Below, one piece after another: positions 55,140-64,000 of a stretch of 64,000 nucleotides of DNA. The position numbers and the translations under genes were made by a program. The notes beneath the pieces are model-generated. The model did not search any database. It had not been told where the DNA came from and saw only the letters and a program-made list of their open reading frames with translations. The stretch lies in contig NZ_JAQSDA010000020.1 in assembly GCF_029945685.1 (NCBI RefSeq), positions 1 through 64,000 on the forward strand. The letters are read 5' to 3'. The stretch is from Polaromonas sp. (GTDB lineage: Bacteria; Pseudomonadota; Gammaproteobacteria; Burkholderiales; Burkholderiaceae_C). Each line of letters starts with the position of its first letter. The first letter of the stretch is position 1.

Positions 55140-55434
55140 ACTTTGCTTAACCATCCTTTGCCCGCCAGCCGTCGAGGAAAAACTACTCGACCTGCTCCTT
55201 TTGTCCCCCAACGCGGCGGTATTTACAAGTGCGCCGACAGCCGCTCATGGCCTGGCTTTCGGCAGCCTTAACCAGACCGAGCAGGTGCTCGGCCGCGCGT
55301 TTGCGACCCAGGTGCAAGTGGTTATTCCTGAAGCCGACCGGCAGGCACTGCTGGGCGATATCCAAGAGCAGTTTGCCGGTGCTGGCCTGCGTTACTGGAT
55401 AACGCCAGTCATCGACGCGGGAGAAATTGCATGA
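55132..55434 (+). CDS. DUF3240 family protein
   Basis: This 100-residue soluble protein has the DUF3240 pattern (LCLTILCPPAVEEKLLDLLL, then a GLNQTEQVLGR-like loop and a VVIPEADRQALL helix). The fold resembles PII/CutA-type signalling proteins. Such genes often stand next to czcA-type pumps and may modulate or sense metal. The ATG at 55132 is within the pump's last codons and the stop overlaps the channel gene, so all three are coupled. It is cytosolic. Confidence 0.8.
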   Translation: MSELCLTILCPPAVEEKLLDLLLLSPNAAVFTSAPTAAHGLAFGSLNQTEQVLGRAFATQVQVVIPEADRQALLGDIQEQFAGAGLRYWITPVIDAGEIA

Positions 55435-56669
55435 TGATTCGACTGCTCTTGGCAACCCTGATCATGGTGGCTGGTTCTGCCTACGCACTGCAGCCACCGA
55501 ATGTCCCCGGACTTTTGCCTATGGAGATCGCGCGTCCTCTGTTGGAGCAGGACCCGCGTGTGGCTGCTGCGCGCGCAGGTTTGGAGGTCGCAAAGCAAGA
55601 GGCCAGCATTCTTGACAAATCACCTTACGAATGGACCGGCAAGGCACTGGGGCAGCGGCGATCTCTCGACACGGGGCCCCGCTACCGGGAGTGGAACGTC
55701 GGCATTGAGCGGACCATCAGACTTCCCGGCAAGGGCTCGGCTGACCGCAACATCGGTAAGGCCACTATCGAGGAGTCCGAGGCACGGTATGGAGAGGCGT
55801 TGCATGAATCCGCCCGAGAACTGGCTTCACTCTGGGTGGATTGGCTTGCTGCGGAGCGCGGTCGCGAGCTGGCTGCGTCAAATCTTGTGGCGGTGCAGGA
55901 AAATCTGAAGGCGGTAGACAAACGCCTCCGTGCTGGCGACGCATCCAAACTTGATCTCAACCTTGCTAGCGCCGAGCTAGCGGAGCAAAAACGGATGGAC
56001 AACGATGCTCGAACGCAGGCTTCGGCTGCCTGGGCTCGACTGTCGGTCCGTTTCCCCGGTATCAACCGCCAAAGCGTGCTTTTGCCGGCCCCCATGTTGA
56101 TTGCTGAGGATGAGGCCCTGTGGCGGGATCGGATCATTGGCGAAAGCGACGAACTCAAGGTTGTGCAGACCCAGTTGCGTATAGCGCAAGCCCAAGCCGA
56201 CCGTGCGCAGGCCGACCGGGTTCCCGATCCGACTTTTGGCGTTTACACGGCTTCGGAGGTCGGTGGCCGCGAACGGATTTCAGGTATCACCCTCAGTATT
56301 CCCCTGCCTGGAGGCTTGCGCGATTCACGCAGTTCCAAGGCTCTGGCGGCCGTTGAAGTGGCCCGTAATGCCGCTGACCTCAAGAAACGTGAGCTCGAAA
56401 CCGAGATTGCCTCGGCATTGGTCACTGCCCGGGGAACATATGAAAGCCTGCAGATTGCCAACGAGGGCGCTCTCGCCATGCAGGAAAACGCCAAGCTGGT
56501 GCAACGCGCTTACGCACTCGGTGAGGGAGATTTGCAAACTTTGTTGCTGGCGCGCCGGCAGACCACCGCTGCAGCCAATAGCGCATTGCTCGCGCAGGTT
56601 GGCGCTTTGAAAGCTTACTACGGGCTGCTGATTGACGCGCACCTGATATGGGGTTTGGACAGTGAGTGA
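55431..56669 (+). CDS. Outer-membrane efflux protein of the TolC family
   Basis: The 412-residue protein has a signal peptide (IRLLLATLIMVAGSAYA) and the two-repeat TolC layout with long heptad helices around 40-210 and 230-400. It completes the tripartite pump of this operon. The order adaptor-pump-DUF3240-channel differs from the czcC-czcB-czcA order of the first system. It begins with an ATGA overlap with the DUF3240 gene. A small lipoprotein gene follows after about 100 bases. Confidence 0.88.
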   Translation: MMIRLLLATLIMVAGSAYALQPPNVPGLLPMEIARPLLEQDPRVAAARAGLEVAKQEASILDKSPYEWTGKALGQRRSLDTGPRYREWNVGIERTIRLPGKGSADRNIGKATIEESEARYGEALHESARELASLWVDWLAAERGRELAASNLVAVQENLKAVDKRLRAGDASKLDLNLASAELAEQKRMDNDARTQASAAWARLSVRFPGINRQSVLLPAPMLIAEDEALWRDRIIGESDELKVVQTQLRIAQAQADRAQADRVPDPTFGVYTASEVGGRERISGITLSIPLPGGLRDSRSSKALAAVEVARNAADLKKRELETEIASALVTARGTYESLQIANEGALAMQENAKLVQRAYALGEGDLQTLLLARRQTTAAANSALLAQVGALKAYYGLLIDAHLIWGLDSE

Positions 56670-56770
56670 CGAGAGATCGATTTCAAAAGTGACGAAAGGC
56701 AACGAGGTGAATGTGCGTTCAGTCAACCTCCACGCTCACTATCAACAATCTGTCTGTGAAGGAAAACAGA

Positions 56771-57127
56771 ATGAAGCTGACATCTAAATATTTACTGCCG
56801 ATGGCTTCTTTGTTGGTTCTGGGCGGTTGTCAGACCATCTACGAAGGCAAGTATGACTGGGACGAAGGTTGGCGCCCCGGTACGGTGCTCGAGGTTGGTT
56901 CAGCGGATCAGGCTGCCAAAGAGCCTTTTCGGGATTGTCGTAAGGGTCTTAGCGTTGTGGAGAAAAGTGCAGTCAAGTTTGCGGTGGTGAGATATTCCCA
57001 TTTAAGTCACCCCCAAAAAGCAGTGATCCCAATTGCACCCGAATCGACATGGAGCCGCGGGGACCCGGTATACATCAACGTTCTGAATTGCCAAATTGCC
57101 TTGGAGCGACGATCAAATGGTGGCTAG
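56771..57127 (+). CDS. Small lipoprotein
   Basis: The 118-residue protein has a lipoprotein signal (MKLTSKYLLPMASLLVLGGC, with the lipobox LGGC and the lipidated Cys20). The mature part has two more cysteines (RDCRKG, LNCQIA) that could form a disulfide. No family is recognised. AAGGAAAAC precedes the ATG at 56771. It ends the second RND operon and faces the minus-strand HupE operon convergently. Confidence 0.68.
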   Translation: MKLTSKYLLPMASLLVLGGCQTIYEGKYDWDEGWRPGTVLEVGSADQAAKEPFRDCRKGLSVVEKSAVKFAVVRYSHLSHPQKAVIPIAPESTWSRGDPVYINVLNCQIALERRSNGG

Positions 57128-57266
57128 TTGACTGACCAGCCATCCCGACACTAGATTGGCCCGACTTCCATCAAATTTCACCGCATTCTGGTGGCCAGTT
57201 CCTGCGACGGAACACTCGCTCCGTACCGAACGGCCGGAGACAAGAGATCTCCGGTCCTGATCGGCA

Positions 57267-57467
57267 TCACTCGTGGCTGTGTCCGTGACCGCCTTTTCCA
57301 TGTGAGCCGGCCTTCTCGCATCCGGCCAGCGTGGCCAGGAAGACGACCATAAGAATGGCGCTGACAACAGTATTGAGAGTTTTCAGAAGAGTACTGAATC
57401 GAAGAGGCTTGCAGAGGGTGTGTTCAAGGCGGGCGCCACGGCAAAGGGCGCAGCGCCCTTCATTCAC
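57267..57467 (-). CDS. Small His-rich lipoprotein
   Basis: The 66-residue protein carries a lipobox LAGC near residue 49 after a hydrophobic stretch (TVVSAILMVVFLATLAGC). It ends KAGSHGKGGHGHSHE, so the mature lipoprotein would be an 18-residue metal-binding tail. A GTG at 57467 overlaps the stop of the anchor gene as GTGA; it gives an unusually long region before the signal, and no nearer start is clear. It ends the HupE operon. Confidence 0.55.
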   Translation of the reverse strand: MNEGRCALCRGARLEHTLCKPLRFSTLLKTLNTVVSAILMVVFLATLAGCEKAGSHGKGGHGHSHE

Positions 57468-58138
57468 ATCATTTTTTTGATATCGGTGTAATCACCGCGC
57501 GTGCGCAGGATGACCTTGACGTTTGACTTGCCCCGATTGCGCCAGTACCAGCCGTGGTTGCCCGTGAATGCGGCTTCCAGCACGCCGTCATCTGACGCAA
57601 CCGCACGGCCTTTCTCGTAGCTGATCGACTTGCCAGATGCATCACCGTGGGTGTCGAAGTTGACCACACCGCCCTCGACGACCCACGAATATTGAGCCTT
57701 GGCGCCTTGGACCATCTTCAGCTTGATTTCCGTGCCCTCTCCTGGAGTCAGAGTAACGGGCATCTCGTCGCGCCATTCAATCTTGGGGGCGGCAGCTTGG
57801 ATTGTCTCCTTCGGGGTAGTTGCCGCCGCTGGACTTGCGGGCGATGGGGTCGCATCGACCGCAGCCATGCCCGTCGCTGCTCCGGCCGCCGGTGACTGTG
57901 TTGCCGATGTCGCGGTGGCAGCATCGGCTGCGGCCTGCGACGCCAGCTGTTGCTTGACGTCGCCCATTTCAGTCATACGCAGGACTCGACCGATGCCGGT
58001 GGGATCGATGCCGTATTCGGCCGGAAGCACGACCGCAACCAGCAGCACCAGCGCCGAAATGACGGCCAGGATGGTGGAGCGCACAAGCTGTTTGGAAGAG
58101 GGCAGTTCGGCGCGCAGGGGGGTATCGCTGTTATACAT
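57464..58138 (-). CDS. Membrane-anchored periplasmic protein (transmembrane anchor type)
   Basis: The 224-residue protein has one membrane helix (STILAVISALVLLVAVVLPAE) near residues 20-42, then an Ala/Pro/Thr-rich linker (about 70-125), then a folded beta domain from about 130 (KIEWRDEMPVTLTPGEG to the end). Relatives are called transmembrane anchor proteins and occur next to HupE/UreJ-like genes. The ATG at 58138 is chosen; a longer frame upstream is a shadow of the HupE gene. It lies 20 bases after that gene. The role is unknown. Confidence 0.75.
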   Translation of the reverse strand: MYNSDTPLRAELPSSKQLVRSTILAVISALVLLVAVVLPAEYGIDPTGIGRVLRMTEMGDVKQQLASQAAADAATATSATQSPAAGAATGMAAVDATPSPASPAAATTPKETIQAAAPKIEWRDEMPVTLTPGEGTEIKLKMVQGAKAQYSWVVEGGVVNFDTHGDASGKSISYEKGRAVASDDGVLEAAFTGNHGWYWRNRGKSNVKVILRTRGDYTDIKKMM

Positions 58139-58158
58139 GTTGAATATTCCTTGGGTGT

Positions 58159-58896
58159 TCAGGACACAAAGTAGCCGGTGAGCTGCATGCCCACCAGAAT
58201 GAAGCCCGCGCTCATCATGGCGACGTTGGCTGTGTAGGCGTGGCGGATGAAGCTGGGTGTGCGGCGCCAGTAGCTCATGCCAATCAGGATGACCGCCAAT
58301 GCCAGCAACTGGCCGATTTCCACACCCACGTTGAAGGCCAGCAGGTTGGGTAGCAGTCCGTCGGGTGAGATCTCGTACTCCTGGATCTTGGTCGCCAAAC
58401 CAAAGCCGTGAAACAGGCCAAACACCAGGGTCGCGATCCTGGTGTTGGGCTGGAACCCCAGCCATCGCTGGAAAGCACCGATGTTGTCCAGAGCCTTGTA
58501 GACGACGGACAGACCGATGATCGCGTCGATCAGGTAGCTGTTGATTTCGACGTTGAAGTAAACGCCCAGGATCATGGTGGTGGAATGACCCAACGCAAAC
58601 AGGCTCACATAGATGCCGATGTGCTGGATCCGGTAGAGGAAGAAAATCACGCCGAACAGAAACAGGATGTGGTCGTAACCCGTCATCATGTGTTTGGCGC
58701 CCAGGTACATGAAGGGCAGCAGATTGATGCCCGAAATTTCCTGGATATAGCCCTTGTCGCCTGCGGTGACTGCGTGGGCCAAGGCCTCTGTGCCGCCAAC
58801 GAAAAGGCAGATGAAGAATGCCGAAAGAAGCAAGAGACGGGATCGCCAGATCGCCCATGGCGAACGTGGCAGCCTGTCGTGAACATGGCCGTGCAT
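58159..58896 (-). CDS. HupE/UreJ family membrane protein
   Basis: The 245-residue protein has six or seven membrane segments. It has the family's His-containing motifs GAKHMMTGYDHILFLFGV and ALGHSTTMILG, and a third, FGLFHGFGLATKI. HupE/UreJ proteins move nickel; this branch (HupE/UreJ_2) is less well known, and direction is uncertain. The amino end has MHGHVHD before the first hydrophobic segment. It lies between a His-rich secreted protein and the anchor gene on one strand, and beside an RcnR-like repressor, which supports nickel or cobalt handling. Confidence 0.85.
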   Translation of the reverse strand: MHGHVHDRLPRSPWAIWRSRLLLLSAFFICLFVGGTEALAHAVTAGDKGYIQEISGINLLPFMYLGAKHMMTGYDHILFLFGVIFFLYRIQHIGIYVSLFALGHSTTMILGVYFNVEINSYLIDAIIGLSVVYKALDNIGAFQRWLGFQPNTRIATLVFGLFHGFGLATKIQEYEISPDGLLPNLLAFNVGVEIGQLLALAVILIGMSYWRRTPSFIRHAYTANVAMMSAGFILVGMQLTGYFVS

Positions 58897-58961
58897 AAAG
58901 ACTCCTGTGGTCTGAAAGAAAGGGAAGCGCTGCGTGGCGCAGCGCGAGGACGGGAAGCGTC

Positions 58962-59375
58962 TCAGCCCATGGGCGGGCGTTCGAGCCGGGACGCCTGAAT
59001 CATTTCAATCCGCGGCTGCACCAGCCCCCGCCAGCCGGGAAGCTGCGGTGCTGCAGAACTCCAGGCAACGGGCAAGGCATGGGCCTTGTCGTGCGAATGA
59101 TCCGCCCCGTGGTGGGGATGGTCGGCACCTGCACTCTGATTCACCATCGCCAATTCGCCGCCTCTGTCCTCGTGCACATGTCCGTGCGACTCGGCCGAGG
59201 AAGATGGAGCGCCGTGGAGCGCTGCTGCGATGACTGCGAGGCCATGGGAGCCCGTGCTCCCCATCGAGGAGATGATCGTCCCGAACAGGATCACCACCAG
59301 AACCAGCCATCGCACGCCCAGCGTTGCCCCGTCAGGGCGCAAGGAGCATGAGACAAGCAAGGTCATGGAGTGCAA
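58962..59375 (-). CDS. His-rich secreted or membrane-anchored protein
   Basis: The 137-residue protein has one hydrophobic stretch (VRWLVLVVILFGTIISSMG, about 21-39) followed by His-rich segments (ESHGHVHEDRG, DHPHHGADHSHDKAH) and an end with SRLERPPMG. An ATG at 59366 is an alternative start. It is the first gene of the HupE operon and divergent from a second RcnR-like gene, whose promoter region is next to it. Metal binding is likely. It resembles in layout the proteins at 41614 and 50449. Confidence 0.68.
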   Translation of the reverse strand: MHSMTLLVSCSLRPDGATLGVRWLVLVVILFGTIISSMGSTGSHGLAVIAAALHGAPSSSAESHGHVHEDRGGELAMVNQSAGADHPHHGADHSHDKAHALPVAWSSAAPQLPGWRGLVQPRIEMIQASRLERPPMG

Positions 59376-59403
59376 TTGAGTTTCAAGGCCAAAGATGGGG
59401 ATT

Positions 59404-59426
59404 ATAGTAACCCCCCCGGGAGGATA
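59404..59426 (+). promoter_or_regulatory. Possible RcnR-type operator
   Basis: A C7 tract (59411-59417) lies between TAGTAA and AGGATA; read on the other strand it is TATCCT, a spacer, a G7 tract and TTACTA. The AGGATA half and G-tract match the operator at 50144. TATAGT at 59404-59409 could be a -10 element. The repressor gene starts ten bases downstream. Confidence 0.5.
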
Positions 59427-59435
59427 AAGTCAGCC

Positions 59436-59714
59436 ATGAAACAACCGCATACACATGCATCTCATCCAGCCATCATCAAACGCCTGCGCAGAGCCAGTGG
59501 GCACTTGAGCAGCACCATGGACATGCTGGAGCAGGGCCGACCCTGTCTCGATGTCGCGCAACAGCTGCAGGCGGTGGAGAAAGCGATTCAGCAAGCCAAA
59601 AAAGCCCTGATCCAGAGCCATCTGGACCACTGCCTTGAAGATCTCGTGGGCCCTCTGGGTGTCGGCCAGCGCCACTCCCTGGACGAATTCAGGGAAATCA
59701 CACGCTACCTCTGA
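59436..59714 (+). CDS. CsoR/RcnR-family metal-sensing repressor, second copy
   Basis: This 92-residue protein is a paralogue of the repressor at 50170, with the same His-rich start (HTHASHP), Cys37 in RPCLDVAQQLQAVEKAI, and His62 and Cys66 in SHLDHCLEDL. The histidine at position 60 of the first copy is glutamine here, so metal preference may differ. GGGAGG precedes the ATG at 59436. It is followed on the same strand by a frameshifted exporter and is divergent from the HupE operon. Confidence 0.86.
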   Translation: MKQPHTHASHPAIIKRLRRASGHLSSTMDMLEQGRPCLDVAQQLQAVEKAIQQAKKALIQSHLDHCLEDLVGPLGVGQRHSLDEFREITRYL

Positions 59715-59761: not shown

Positions 59762-61104
59762 ATGCTTGACGTTCTTTCCCACCGCACCTACCGCCATTTG
59801 TTTGCCGCTCAGGTGATTGCCTTGTTCGGAACCGGGCGGGCCACGGTGGCGCTCGGGCTGCTGGCCTTTGACCTGGCCGGCGACAACGCGGGTATGGTGC
59901 TGGGCACGGCGCTGGCCATCAAGATGATCGCCTACGTTGGCGTGGCGCCGGTTGCAGCTGCATTTGCCGAGCGCCTGCCCAGGCGCACCATGCTGGTCAC
60001 GCTGGATCTGGTTCGGGCGGCTGTGGCGCTGCTGCTGCCATTTGTCTCCCAGATCTGGGAGGTGTACGTGCTGATTTTCGTGCTGCAGTCGGCGTCGGCT
60101 GCCTTCACGCCCACTTTTCAGGCCACCATTCCCGACGTGTTACCAGAGGAAAAGGACTACACCAAGGCCTTGTCGCTCTCACGCCTTGCGTACGACATGG
60201 AGAGTCTGGTCAGCCCTATGCTGGCAGCTGCTCTGCTTACTGTGATCGGGTTTCACGATCTGTTTGCCGGCACAGTGGTGGGCTTCCTGGCATCGGCGGC
60301 GCTGGTGGTGTCGGTGGCGTTACCGGCACATCCGGCTCCGCAGCGCCGTGGTATCTACGACCGGACCACGCGCGGGCTGCGCATCTACCTGGCCACACCC
60401 CGGTGCGCGGGCTGCTTGCCGTCAATGGGGCCGTGGCTGCGGCAGGCTCCATGGTGTTTGTCAACACGGTGGTGATTGTTCAGGTCGGGTTGGGCCTGAC
60501 CCAGAGCGCGGTGGCTTTGGCGTTGGCGTTGGCGTTGGCGTTGGCCAGTTTCGGCGCCGGTTCCATGGTGGCTGCACTGGTTTTGCCACGCCTGTTGGAG
60601 AAACTGACTGATCGCAGTGTGATGCTGGGCGGCATTGGGGTGATGGTCGCGGGCCTGTTCGCGGGAACCCTGGTGGTAGGACATGCTTCGCTGATGGTCT
60701 TGTGGTTCGTGCTCGGTCTTGGCTACTCCACTGCCCAGACGCCCTCCGGGCGCTTGTTGCGGCGATCCTCGAACCCCGAAGATCGCCCTGCGTTGTTTGC
60801 CGCGCAGTTCGCGCTTTCTCACGCCTGCTGGCTGTTCTTATACCCCTTGGCCGGCTGGCTCGGTACTCGCTTTGGGATGACCGCGACGTTCGTGATGCTG
60901 GGCTGTGCAGGCGCATTGGCCGTCTTGGTCACCACGATGGTCTGGCCATCTGAGGATCCCGACATCATCGAGCACGAACACCCGGACTTGCCGGCCGGGC
61001 ACACGCACACCCAGGGTGCTGTCGACAATGGCGATCGGGTGCGTCATGCGCATGCTTTCGTGGTCGATCACCAGCACTCCCACTGGCCCAGCGCGGGTCG
61101 CTGA
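59762..61104 (+). pseudogene. Frameshifted major facilitator exporter (paralogue of the gene at 48735)
   Basis: The first 217 codons match the intact exporter closely (MLDVLSHRTYRHLFAAQVIA at the start). At about 60400-60404 one C appears to be missing from CCCCGG-TGCGCGG; the frame then reads a false end and stops near 60475. The matching sequence continues in another frame from about 60403 to 61104 (RGLLAVNGAVAAAGSM), with the His-rich tail intact (HEHPDLPAGHTH, RHAHAFVVDHQHSH). Restoring one base gives about 447 residues. A hexanucleotide repeat adds about six residues in the second half. A sequencing error cannot be excluded. Confidence 0.82.
60523..60546 (+). repeat. Hexanucleotide tandem repeat inside the exporter pseudogene
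   Basis: The unit GGCGTT (GCGTTG in another phase) is repeated about four times in a row, encoding an Ala-Leu repeat in a membrane helix. The intact paralogue at 48735 has about six residues fewer at this place (IALACFGAG). This suggests expansion by strand slippage. Confidence 0.7.
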
Positions 61105-61502
61105 TGTCGGAACTTGCGGCCTGCACTTACGGCGCCGCGTGCGCGGATGAAGCTTGCTGGGCAGAACCTTCAAGAAGTCGGAAAGGCCGTCAGATAAATC
61201 AACATGGCGCCTTTTCGAGAGCTTCACACAGTAGGGAGCGGACATTTGCGACAAAAAATGCCGTTATTCTCATACAGGTTGTTGAATTGCACTGAAGTCT
61301 GACCAGTTTTCCATCGAATCTTGACCCACACTCTTTGCGAGCTCATCGGCTTCATCTATCGTCTCCTGGTTGCCTGCAGCGACAGCGCGGCAGATCACTC
61401 AATAGTGGACTTGATTAGAGTTTCCCTTGGCGGGAGTATGGTAGCCCTTGCGTTCCGAAGTTGACCGTCTAAAAATTGGCGCAGACCTCCCCCAATCAGA
61501 GG
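61105..61502. other. Intergenic gap before the ubiquitin-like cassette
   Basis: I see no convincing gene, repeat or RNA in these 400 bases. Short frames are broken. The base composition changes toward A/T in this stretch and stays lower through the genes that follow, so this may be one edge of a transferred segment. No integrase or attachment site was recognised. Confidence 0.4.
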
Positions 61503-61613
61503 ATGCAATCGGGACAGACAGGGATTACTATCAAATACCGTAAGCTCAACGGCCGAGATGAAATTTTCCGCGCTTGCATAAACCGTGATGGCTTTGACGC
61601 AACTTCTCTTTAA
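61503..61613 (+). other. Short open frame upstream of the cassette, possibly a gene remnant
   Basis: A frame from the ATG at 61503 to a TAA at 61611 encodes 36 residues (GITIKYRKLNGRDEIFRACI and then NRDGFDATSL). It could also begin at a TTG 30 bases earlier. Loss of one base near 61605 would join it to the frame that continues into the proline-rich peptide (FNAVVYIDPTTINQ). It may be a real small gene, the broken front part of the next gene, or chance. Confidence 0.25.
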
Positions 61614-61659
61614 CGCGGTCGTCTATATCGATCCAACGACAATCAATCAAGGAATATAC

Positions 61660-61797
61660 GTGGCTCAAAGTACACCTAAAAAACCGGGGCATCCCGAGCA
61701 TCCAGAGCATCCGAATGTGCCGCCAGGTCCGCCTCTCCAAGTCCCCCCTGGACCAACACCCCCGCCTCGTCCGCCAAAGGACCGTGAGGTTGGTTAA
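61660..61797 (+). CDS. Proline/histidine-rich 45-residue peptide ending in glycine
   Basis: From the GTG at 61660, with AAGGA six bases upstream, the product has a GHPEHPEHPN repeat, PPGPP and PPGPTPPPRPP segments, and the end KDREVG. It has no hydrophobic core and cannot fold as ubiquitin. The stop TAA is directly followed by the TTG start of the E2-E1 gene, so translation is probably coupled. A carboxy-terminal glycine is what E1 enzymes activate, so the peptide may be the substrate of the next protein; this is inference. A longer frame to 61585 exists but has no good ribosome site. Confidence 0.6.
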   Translation: MAQSTPKKPGHPEHPEHPNVPPGPPLQVPPGPTPPPRPPKDREVG

Positions 61798-63516
61798 TTG
61801 TTCTGGTACGACGAATTCCCCGCACGTTTGCAGTTTGAGCTCGATGAGCTTGAAAATGCTGGTTTTTCGGTCGTCATAGACCCGGAAAGACGAGCTGCTG
61901 GCCAGCTGGTCTTGACCGTCGTTTACCGGATCGCAGAGGCTGAGCACCCTCTGATGGTGGTGTTTCCCTCAGACTATCCGTATTTTGCGTTTCAAGTTTT
62001 TGCTCCAACTTTGGCCTTGGCAAAACACCAGGACCCTGTTTCGAAACTACTTTGCTTCGTCGCGCACATCGACTCGGAGTGGAACATGGCAGCCGACACG
62101 GTTGCCAAATATCTGCTCGAACAGTTACCTGAGGTTCTGAAGGCTGACAAGGGTGATCCGTCGGTTGCTGAAGCTCGGGAGGGTGCACCCATCACAGGGT
62201 TTCTCAACTATATGACCGATAGCCTGGTCGTGACTTCCGACTGGGCGCTGCCACCGGAAAATGGACGCGGCAAGCTGGTCATCGGCGTGGAAAACGACGT
62301 CGATCTGAACAAGCTTTTTAGGTGTGCGATTCTCGAAGTGCATGATATAAACGGCGACGTGCTGGGCCAATCGGATCTCAGCATCCAGGCCAGATATCCA
62401 GGCCGATTTCATGCACGTTGGGTCCGGTTGACTGGCCCACCCAAGTCAACCGAACCATTGCGCGTCTTGGATGAGGCGATCAAGATTTGGCCCGAGCTTC
62501 TAAAGCCCAACTTTAACGGCGAACCAGATGTTGTCGGCCTTGTTTTCGCCGACCAAGCCCGATTTGAAGAGCAACACGATATTTGGCTATTTTTGGTCAG
62601 GCGCCGGTTTCGAGCAAGCGTACCCGTCAAAACCGGAAGGAGATTGCCCCCGGGCGATCAAATTCAATATTTCCTTGCCCGTGCAGACCGAGGTAGCCGC
62701 GACGATCTGCAAACGCGTGTGCCGCGTCTGAAACCGGCGGCCGAAAAGGTTGTCTCAGTCTTTGGACTTGGTGCCCTAGGCTCAACTGTTGCATGGCAGC
62801 TTGCACGAGCCGGAATCGGACGTCTAAACCTGATTGATCATGATTTTGTTCAGGCGGGCAATATTCCGCGATGGATTATGGGTTGGGCGGCTGCAGGCTA
62901 TGGCAAAGCAGATGTGCTGGCCAAGCACATTACTCACAATTATCCCTTTGTTGAGACCCTCGCAATCCCACTGAAGGTGGGCTCTCCCATGGACGTTAAG
63001 AGTCCAGTGGGAGATTATGAAAGTCGGATGGCCCGCGCATTGGAAGGGACCGACCTCATCATCGATTGCACCGTGGAGTTCACGGTCCAGAACTTTCTAG
63101 CGGACTACGCATGGAAGCATGGCATTCCATACCTCTGGGGCACCGGAACTCCGGGGGCCTGGGGCGGTATCGTCGGTCGGGCTATTCGGGGAAAGACCCT
63201 AGGGTGCTGGAGATGTTTCAGGCATCAGCTATTCGAGAAAAAAATTGACGCTCCAGTTTTCGAGGAGGGTCCCACTGTACAGCCCATCGGTTGCTTCAGC
63301 CCCACGTTCACCGGCTCCGGTTTCGATATGGATTCAGTGGCGCTGCAAACGGTGCGTATGGCGGTGGCGACATTGTGCGTGGGTGCTGAACATGGCTATC
63401 CTGATTTCGATTGGGATGTTGGCGTTGTCAACCTCTGGAAAGACGGGCATCCGATTGCGCCCTCGTGGCAGACCTGTCCCCTCGACCAACATCCAGCCTG
63501 CGATGCCCATGGGTGA
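61798..63516 (+). CDS. E2-E1 fusion protein (ubiquitin-like conjugation; ThiF-type adenylation domain)
   Basis: The 572-residue protein has an E2-like domain in its first 115 residues (FPSDYPYFAFQVF, then a candidate catalytic Cys86 in LLCFVAHIDSEWN), a middle domain (about 130-300), and an E1/ThiF adenylation domain from about 315. The last has the nucleotide loop VFGLGALGS (321-329), the DHDFVQAGNIPRW segment, and IIDCTVEF. Cysteine pairs CWRC (470-473) and C560/C568 could hold zinc, and Cys499 in QPIGCFSPTFTG may be an E1 cysteine. The architecture resembles Cap2 of type II CBASS, but no CD-NTase is beside it. The start is a TTG right after the peptide stop. Confidence 0.85.
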   Translation: MFWYDEFPARLQFELDELENAGFSVVIDPERRAAGQLVLTVVYRIAEAEHPLMVVFPSDYPYFAFQVFAPTLALAKHQDPVSKLLCFVAHIDSEWNMAADTVAKYLLEQLPEVLKADKGDPSVAEAREGAPITGFLNYMTDSLVVTSDWALPPENGRGKLVIGVENDVDLNKLFRCAILEVHDINGDVLGQSDLSIQARYPGRFHARWVRLTGPPKSTEPLRVLDEAIKIWPELLKPNFNGEPDVVGLVFADQARFEEQHDIWLFLVRRRFRASVPVKTGRRLPPGDQIQYFLARADRGSRDDLQTRVPRLKPAAEKVVSVFGLGALGSTVAWQLARAGIGRLNLIDHDFVQAGNIPRWIMGWAAAGYGKADVLAKHITHNYPFVETLAIPLKVGSPMDVKSPVGDYESRMARALEGTDLIIDCTVEFTVQNFLADYAWKHGIPYLWGTGTPGAWGGIVGRAIRGKTLGCWRCFRHQLFEKKIDAPVFEEGPTVQPIGCFSPTFTGSGFDMDSVALQTVRMAVATLCVGAEHGYPDFDWDVGVVNLWKDGHPIAPSWQTCPLDQHPACDAHG

Positions 63517-64000
63517 ACCCATCTGGATACCGCGTCAAGCATACGGGCTGATGTGCGCCCTCGGGGAAAAATCTTTCCCATTGGAGACCGGCGGCGTATT
63601 CCTCGGCTACAAAGCAAACAACGGAGAACTAGTTGTAACGGCACTGATCGGCCCGGGTCCCAATGCCCGGCATAGTCGATACAGATTTGTGCCCGACGCG
63701 GAGTACCAACAAGAAAAAATCGAGGTGCATCACGCTCGTTCCGAGGGTCGAGAAACTTATTTGGGGGATTGGCACACCCATCCGCGAGGCAGCGCCGACT
63801 TGAGTTCGCTGGACAAAAGGACGCTCATAAGAATCGCTGATACGCCGTCTTCTGGAACGGACACACCTGTGATGGCAGTTTTGGGTGGCGAAAGCGAAAA
63901 GTGGGATCTAAACGCCGTCCGGTTTGATGGTTGGATCAGGCGCTTTCCGTTCAAACGGTGCAACTTGGTGCCGCTTCTTCCCCGGCTCTACGATCAGGCA
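63503..64000 (+). CDS. JAB/JAMM-family isopeptidase (partial, runs off the window)
   Basis: This zinc-dependent protease family removes ubiquitin-like conjugates. The frame is open from the ATG at 63503 (or 63509) to the window end, at least 166 residues. The JAMM residues are complete: Glu28 in PLETGGVFLG, His91 and His93 in DWHTHP, Ser101 and Asp104 in ADLSSLD. The start overlaps the end of the E2-E1 gene by 14 (or 8) bases. Together they match the E1-E2-JAB grouping of bacterial ubiquitin-like systems (Cap2/Cap3 and Bil types). The carboxy end cannot be seen. Confidence 0.88.
   Translation, partial: MPMGEPIWIPRQAYGLMCALGEKSFPLETGGVFLGYKANNGELVVTALIGPGPNARHSRYRFVPDAEYQQEKIEVHHARSEGRETYLGDWHTHPRGSADLSSLDKRTLIRIADTPSSGTDTPVMAVLGGESEKWDLNAVRFDGWIRRFPFKRCNLVPLLPRLYDQA

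Follow-up and report, generated by a model that had tools for sequence, protein, structure and literature searches.

The window analysed here is a stretch of 64,000 bases from Polaromonas sp. (bases 1-64000 of contig C20, in a genome of 4.74 Mb). At its end lies a compact cassette of three coupled genes (61660-64003), which encode a proline-rich peptide, a protein in which a ubiquitin-conjugating (E2) and a ubiquitin-activating (E1) domain are fused, and a JAB-type isopeptidase (Table 1). These genes had been named in a preliminary description of the window, and reading of the frames together with Pfam matches confirms them. The same description had pointed to the absence of a cGAS/DncV-like nucleotidyltransferase (CD-NTase) and of a ubiquitin-fold gene from the operon, and the unit indeed consists of the three genes only. 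The role of the peptide had been left undecided; the evidence presented below points to the peptide being the modifier.

Table 1. Features of the three-gene cassette, in positions of the window
Feature	Position	Strand	Remarks
AAGGA, ribosome-binding-like	61649..61653	+	read from sequence, 6 nucleotides 5' of the GTG at 61660
Proline-rich peptide gene, 45 amino acids	61660..61797	+	GTG start; stop TAA 61795-61797 included
Conserved C-terminal tail P-P-K-D-R-E-V-G-stop	61771..61797	+	from the tail logo of 54 distinct peptides
E2-E1 fusion, 572 amino acids	61798..63516	+	TTG start abuts the peptide stop, same frame as the peptide
N-terminal E2 (UBC) domain	61798..62187	+	approximate limits; profile match to UBE2L3
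Codon of the invariant E2 Cys86	62053-62055	+
E1/ThiF adenylation domain, residues 298-572	62689..63513	+
Codon of the invariant E1 Cys499	63292-63294	+
JAB/JAMM isopeptidase, 166 amino acids	63503..64000	+	ATG start; stop 64001-64003, 3 nucleotides outside the window

The fusion protein matches the ThiF family of Pfam (2.2e-21), in line with its first assignment, and this match is found in 34/34 members of the enzyme family. A profile built from the E2 part and its counterparts in 20 relatives (21 sequences in all) matches human UBE2L3 (4e-6). Cys86 falls on the active-site position of UBE2L3 in this alignment, the residue which we take to be the catalytic cysteine of that enzyme. Both Cys86 and Cys499 are invariant (34/34). 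The AlphaFold model of the protein has a predicted local distance difference test score of 90.3 and a predicted template modelling score of 0.85, and its comparison with solved structures, mainly through the E1 part, returned the folds of UBA5, MoeB, ThiF and MccB; Cap2 was not among the 50 matches listed, which carries no weight against a likeness to Cap2. By sequence, the protein is predicted to consist of an E1 adenylation domain and an E2 domain, each with a candidate catalytic cysteine.

The JAB gene overlaps the 3' end of the E2-E1 gene with its start. Its product matches Prok-JAB (2e-13), as well as ICE_VC0181 (2.3e-23) and Cap3 (2.7e-13), the latter two each below their own cut-off, and it holds the JAMM metal-site motif HTHP-x6-S-x2-D.

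Peptide and enzyme in related loci

The cassette is not the only one in its genome. On contig C6, a second cassette is found with the same gene order and a 46-amino-acid peptide ending in RPVG. When plasmids were searched by tblastn with the E2-E1 protein, 246 records matched, and eight of these covered at least 80% of it. From the best 13 plasmid loci, 12 were taken (H7 was left out), and H16 was added as a control from type II CBASS (cyclic-oligonucleotide-based anti-phage signalling system). A proline-rich open reading frame (ORF) ending in R-x-V-G lies upstream of the enzyme in 12/12 plasmid loci, and no such peptide is found upstream in H16. It is annotated in only one of the 12, from Hymenobacter, as 'hypothetical protein', in a PLSDB gene table that is incomplete. 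Genome contigs were scanned with a DNA pattern describing an E1 motif that lies far from the peptide, which identified 68 loci, 67 of them with the enzyme; L086 has no E2-E1. The locus set comprises these 68 pattern loci, the 12 from plasmids and both loci of the Polaromonas genome, and the queries by which it was collected were blind to the peptide.

An upstream ORF was counted if it was proline-rich and carried [RKH]x0-2[VYI][GA] towards its end. Among the 66 loci whose 5' end is complete (including the window, the second cassette and near-copies, namely five Sinorhizobium/Ensifer, four Sphingobium and two Hymenobacter), a tailed proline-rich peptide was found just upstream in 64, versus none of 197 control frames in the same loci under the same filter, these controls being stop-to-stop frames of at least 300 amino acids and not annotated genes. 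The three-gene combination is therefore beyond chance. Other E1-type genes, including the CBASS Cap2 of the same genome, likewise gave no upstream peptide (0/10). A further 15 E2-E1 loci have a 5' end that is too short or starts inside the profile; of these, L058 shows the peptide. A whole-genome profile search, also blind to the peptide, revealed nine new places (with L139 resembling L128, and L138 resembling L121), with the peptide in 8/8 of those with a complete 5' end. The conservation of the peptide upstream of the enzyme, raised as a question by the preliminary description, is thus borne out. The ninth of the new places, L144 (profile positions 220-588), is a second, N-terminally shortened E2-E1 copy in genome G1234 and has no peptide. 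The JAB gene is present in 77/81 loci, three of the four exceptions ending within 236 nucleotides, and the strict JAMM motif is seen in 68/77 JAB ORFs.

A tree of 44 E2-E1 proteins took in 35 of the 60 full-length proteins of the set. In this tree, 34/35 peptide-linked proteins join with a support of 98/98, apart from the Cap2-type proteins, and the Cap2-type protein of the same genome falls outside their clade. The protein of L057 (Clostridiaceae, tail K-R-Y-G), on a long branch, is unplaced, the clade including it being supported only by 40/2. In the PADLOC matches listed for the window protein, only E1 parts align (best 5.8e-30), and a profile comparison with three Cap2-type proteins likewise aligns the E1 part only. 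Judged by PADLOC coverage and by the tree, the E2-E1 protein of the window does not appear to be orthologous to Cap2.

The peptide and its C-terminal tail

The peptide of the window, MAQSTPKKPGHPEHPEHPNVPPGPPLQVPPGPTPPPRPPKDREVG, terminates in Glu-Val-Gly. Searches of Pfam and NCBIfam gave no family match for it. The possibility that it is a fragment of a CD-NTase or a hidden ubiquitin fold was rejected, as it has 45 amino acids, more than one third of them proline, and no match in either database. From its composition, the peptide is expected to lack a beta-grasp fold and to be unfolded and polyproline-like.

Altogether, 54 distinct peptides from 65 loci were compared. Their median length is 47 amino acids, a figure touched by the too late starts that the script picked for L058, L099 and L106. 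They contain 35% proline overall and no cysteine, and 52/54 have at least one lysine. The tail upstream of E2-E1 follows the consensus P-x-x-[R/K]-x-[V/Y]-[G/A]. In the tail-anchored logo, the last core residue is glycine in 96% and alanine in 4%, directly preceded by valine in 98%; position -2 is variable (proline in 74%), position -3 is arginine (91%) or lysine (9%) and position -6 is proline (91%). The R/K, V/Y and G/A frequencies are partly preset by the upstream filter, which only two loci failed. Val-Ala instead of Val-Gly ends the tail in L065, L077 and L125, an alternation of glycine and alanine as in CBASS cyclases (passages of PMC10097602). In 5/54 peptides, the glycine is followed by further residues (A, R, Q, QG or QQ, the last in Hymenobacter peptides), and extensions also occur in L141 (LN) and L142 (LL). 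Such extensions resemble those of ubiquitin-type precursors.

The tail is conserved as protein. At the tail sites, all four glycine codons (29/10/8/5), four valine and six arginine codons are in use. Over 18 peptide pairs, chosen greedily from 138 by the highest proportion of synonymous differences (pS) and including some near-copies, 269.5 synonymous versus 89.5 non-synonymous differences were counted. For the window peptide and its Sideroxydans homologue, the ratio of the non-synonymous to the synonymous proportion (pN/pS) is 0.15. The peptide is under selection as a protein.

L106 and L143, two loci from a Hymenobacteraceae group, have the tail at the end of a DUF1508-type protein in place of a bare peptide. 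DUF1508, which we take to be the YegP family, was detected in two stretches in L106 (L106:1596-2087, Pfam 1.1e-21), and L143 was assigned by sequence likeness. The tail is therefore the constant part of these products. In the Polaromonas genome, the tail DNA pattern has three matches, two of which belong to the two cassettes. The third, at contig position 78901, was dismissed as chance, since it runs antisense to a different ORF and lies ten codons past a stop in its own frame.

These features bear on the possibility that the peptide is a translated leader with an inert product, in which stalling on prolines couples or attenuates translation of E2-E1. Proline runs can stall ribosomes, and the peptide stop lies between -4 and 68 nucleotides ahead of the aligned E2-E1 start, often only a few. 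However, this distance varies, conservation peaks at the C-terminal P-x-x-R-x-V-G, synonymous codons are exchanged freely and pN/pS is mostly low. Tail extensions and the tail on DUF1508-type proteins would be senseless in a leader. We regard this explanation as very unlikely.

A proposed conjugation route and its relation to known systems

We consider it probable, on the strength of the sequence comparisons, that the three genes form a self-contained system of ubiquitin-like conjugation in which the proline-rich peptide itself is the modifier. The E1 domain would read the linear tail P-x-x-R-x-V-G and adenylate its C-terminal glycine with ATP, upon which Cys499 would take the activated peptide as a thioester. 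Cys86 in the E2 part of the fusion would then receive the thioester, and this part would transfer the peptide to an amine, most likely a lysine, of a target encoded outside the cassette. The JAB enzyme might trim the short extensions that follow the glycine of some peptides, and might also remove the modifier from its targets again. The relay from Cys499 to Cys86 and the reversal by JAB are proposed by analogy with Cap2 and Cap3. Cap2 forms a thioester with the C-terminal glycine of cGAS, which has no beta-grasp fold, and alanine is tolerated (passages of PMC10097602); its conjugation is reversed by the JAB-type Cap3 (as stated in part of PMC11153139). The invariant cysteines and the tail extensions of one or two residues agree with a relay of the ubiquitin type in which JAB would serve for processing and deconjugation.

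It is also rather likely, although with less confidence, that the cassette represents a class found across phyla, in which a fold-free polyproline tag is read as the linear C-terminal motif P-x-x-R-x-V-G. The tail would then be portable and graftable onto cargo, the C-terminus of the CBASS cyclase being another case. A portable conjugation tail is suggested by the two loci in which a DUF1508-type protein terminates in the tag.

Several observations weigh against the peptide being a conjugated modifier. A bare peptide is an unusual E1 substrate for protein conjugation, and clustering of the flanking open frames showed no target or effector gene that is constant in the neighbourhood. In L091 and L094, the two exceptions among the 66 loci, the proline-rich frame lacks an intact tail, which runs on or is lost, and the E2-E1 frames remain open. 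In two rhizobial pairs of peptides that differ at few sites, pN/pS is 0.71 and 0.97. Prok-E2_B matches the window protein on its own at 1.3e-4, below the Pfam cut-off, and was found in 16/34 members. The fourth of the loci lacking a JAB, a Halomonas copy of E2-E1 (L095), shows none over 7.4 kb of downstream sequence. Finally, 9/77 JABs lack the strict motif; several of these are cut or frame-broken, and in L057 and L116 it is the motif that deviates.

The flanks were also searched for a hidden third partner. This idea was abandoned: in the clustering, with loci mostly of 8 kb, only E2-E1 and JAB (together with their antisense frames) are general. A helix-turn-helix (HTH) gene and a putative metallopeptidase, recognized by eye, recur in the flanks of a few loci. 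Nine loci from Sinorhizobium/Ensifer/Sphingobium (L048, L050, L051, L052, L062, L064, L067, L102 and L118) have a pair of the RES-Xre toxin-antitoxin type upstream, encoded on the other strand.

The same flanks are of importance for two explanations in which the E1 domain would serve a purpose other than protein tagging. In the first, the peptide would be a ribosomal product of the microcin C or pantocin type, its C-terminus being activated by the E1 domain to form a small molecule or an antimicrobial. This would leave no role for JAB or for an E2 with an invariant cysteine, no transporter, immunity or tailoring gene is generally recurrent in the short flanks, and the identical tail is carried by DUF1508-type proteins. 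Its probability is as low as that of the leader. In the second, the C-terminus would become a thiocarboxylate, as in the sulfur carriers ThiS, MoaD and CysO, for a biosynthetic step. The matches of the E1 fold to ThiF and MoeB would agree with this, and some JAB-E1 operons serve sulfur metabolism (Table 1 of PMC1779556). Nevertheless, a fused E2 with an invariant cysteine does not suit such a system, the flank clustering shows no general biosynthetic partner and the composition of the peptide gives no expectation of a beta-grasp fold. Among the explanations considered, a sulfur carrier is the least probable.

As a proposed conjugation system with a peptide modifier, the cassette resembles several known systems. 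It shares with Cap2/Cap3 the E2-wing-E1 fusion and the JAB-type partner, and would also share a substrate without beta-grasp fold, joined via a single C-terminal glycine or alanine (passages of PMC10097602 and PMC12355090). The substrate would here be a proline-rich peptide of 40-60 amino acids and not a CD-NTase, and the cassette operon has neither the cyclase nor the effector of type II CBASS.

The enzyme pair is probably inside the set of classes 6b and 6c (E2-E1 with JAB) of Iyer, Burroughs and Aravind (2006), because plasmid pNGR234a carries the cassette (L048) and the NGR234 plasmid stands in both of these rows, to which 6b adds an actinobacterium 'Asp.' (table of PMC1779556). The partner is given there as a polymerase-beta nucleotidyltransferase or a metal-binding protein, unlike here. 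Section 14 and the table of that paper do not report the peptide, and 'proline' occurs once, in a figure legend.

The Bil (BilABCD) and Bub operons unite a bacterial E1, an E2, a modifier and a JAB-type peptidase, as is proposed for the cassette, and BilA is trimmed to expose a glycine (passages of PMC11354881). BilA, however, has two ubiquitin-like domains, and BilD (E1) and BilB (E2) are separate proteins (same source), whereas the cassette has E1 and E2 in one protein and a 45-amino-acid peptide as the sole candidate modifier. The 6A-MBL anti-phage system (NCBIfam NF058523) contains E2, E1 and JAB modules too, but in a single chain beside a metallo-beta-lactamase gene (row 6a of PMC1779556), and JAB is separate in the cassette. 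NF058523 scored 68.9 and 67.7 bits against the window proteins, with a cut-off of 320.

Pup/UBact is a small unfolded protein modifier, as is proposed here for the peptide. It is joined via a side-chain carboxylate by PafA-type ligases and is not known to involve an E1, E2 or JAB. Literature searches for a proline-rich modifier gave no earlier description among the matches listed, and an earlier mention is possible. We file the novelty as lying in the modifier, within bacterial ubiquitin-like conjugation.

The usual explanation of E1-E2 cascades is that they recognize the beta-grasp fold. According to part of a 2025 review (PMC12355090), Cap2 was then the sole known transferase system of this kind activating a protein without that fold, and others were likely undiscovered. 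If the proposal is true, the cassette would be a further such case after Cap2 and the most minimal of them, with the tail alone as modifier: ubiquitin-type machinery without ubiquitin. The minimum needed for E1 recognition would then become testable with three small genes, and a compact tagging tool might result. The cassette is an added candidate among the conjugation systems of bacterial mobile islands.

Island, downstream CBASS and distribution

The G+C content of 61250-64000 is 0.542 versus 0.611 for 1-61250, so the segment is richer in A+T than its surroundings, as first described. On the contig, G+C stays low (0.54-0.59) from 61.2 kb up to roughly 81 kb. Past position 64000, an HTH gene, a tyrosine recombinase gene and a KfrA-like gene are followed, on the opposite strand, by a complete type II CBASS, 4.6 kb past the window end (about 68.6-75.6 kb of C20; L002:7640-14556). 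It contains two cGAS-type cyclases of 389 and 496 amino acids (341 and 219 bits, cut-off 150), whose operon also holds genes of the Cap2 and Cap3 types and that of the effector, a patatin, and it is flanked by a divergent WYL regulator. The Cap2-type E1-E2 protein matches PADLOC PDLC00853 over 550 amino acids (3.4e-178). The Cap3-type JAB reaches 120.8 bits, below the NCBIfam Cap3 cut-off of 200, and 1e-45 with the PADLOC JAB profile. The island context alone suggests a role in defence, and any defence or stress function would be an extrapolation from it.

A CD-NTase immediately beyond 64000 had been named as an observation that would speak against an independent cassette. None adjoins it, the nearest being those of this CBASS, and the objection does not apply because they sit in a separate system with its own Cap2/Cap3-type genes. 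For the same reason, and given its own effector gene and its position on the other strand, the downstream CBASS was discarded as the missing partner; it does not explain the cassette.

A related possibility is that the cassette is a detached CBASS module, with E2-E1 and JAB acting in trans on a CD-NTase and the peptide incidental or a competitor. The presence of a CBASS in the same island would be compatible with this, as would the fact that Cap2 is the closest solved structure by sequence (7to3, 7.5e-22). Yet the nearby CBASS is equipped with a Cap2-type protein of its own, which is separate in the tree and lacks the upstream peptide, and the link of peptide and enzyme persists across phyla. 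In addition, 0/12 plasmid loci have an annotated CD-NTase in the operon, the gene tables being incomplete; in L054, a nucleotidyltransferase is annotated about 1 kb off, on the other strand. A detached module is thus highly improbable, even slightly more so than the leader.

The cassette is rare and widely spread. A full-length enzyme (E <=1e-45) was found in 3/369 genomes of the class and 2/398 in a phylum sample, the Polaromonas genome being included in both, and in 7/200 genomes of the family around a Pontibacter carrier. In a sample of 299 genomes of the Polaromonas family, full-length matches came from the genome of the window only, among the matches listed. By record title, carriers with an intact tail belong to Pseudomonadota, Bacteroidota, Actinomycetota, Planctomycetota, Acidobacteriota (Terriglobia), Bacillota, Patescibacteria/Nomurabacteria and KSB1. 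Several of these records are metagenome bins, for which the assigned phylum could be in error. In Chloroflexota bins, the enzyme is present and an intact tail was not seen. A phage-borne system was rejected, as 0/50,697 phage records cover 80% of the enzyme and viral contigs gave no pattern match; a further search tied to this idea yielded no confirmed relative.

Close to the second cassette of the genome (L034:3183-7776) lie genes for an AAA ATPase and a subtilase and, judged by likeness, a KfrA-like gene; the first cassette is also accompanied by a KfrA-like gene. Metal or copper resistance or efflux genes occur close to the cassette in L043, L044, L051, L052 and the window (55431-59714), which may merely reflect shared vehicles. 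Upstream of the cassette, at 59762-61104, a transporter of the major facilitator superfamily extends over two overlapping frames (59762-60475 and 60403-61104) and appears to be broken; it adjoins a gene for a metal-sensing repressor.

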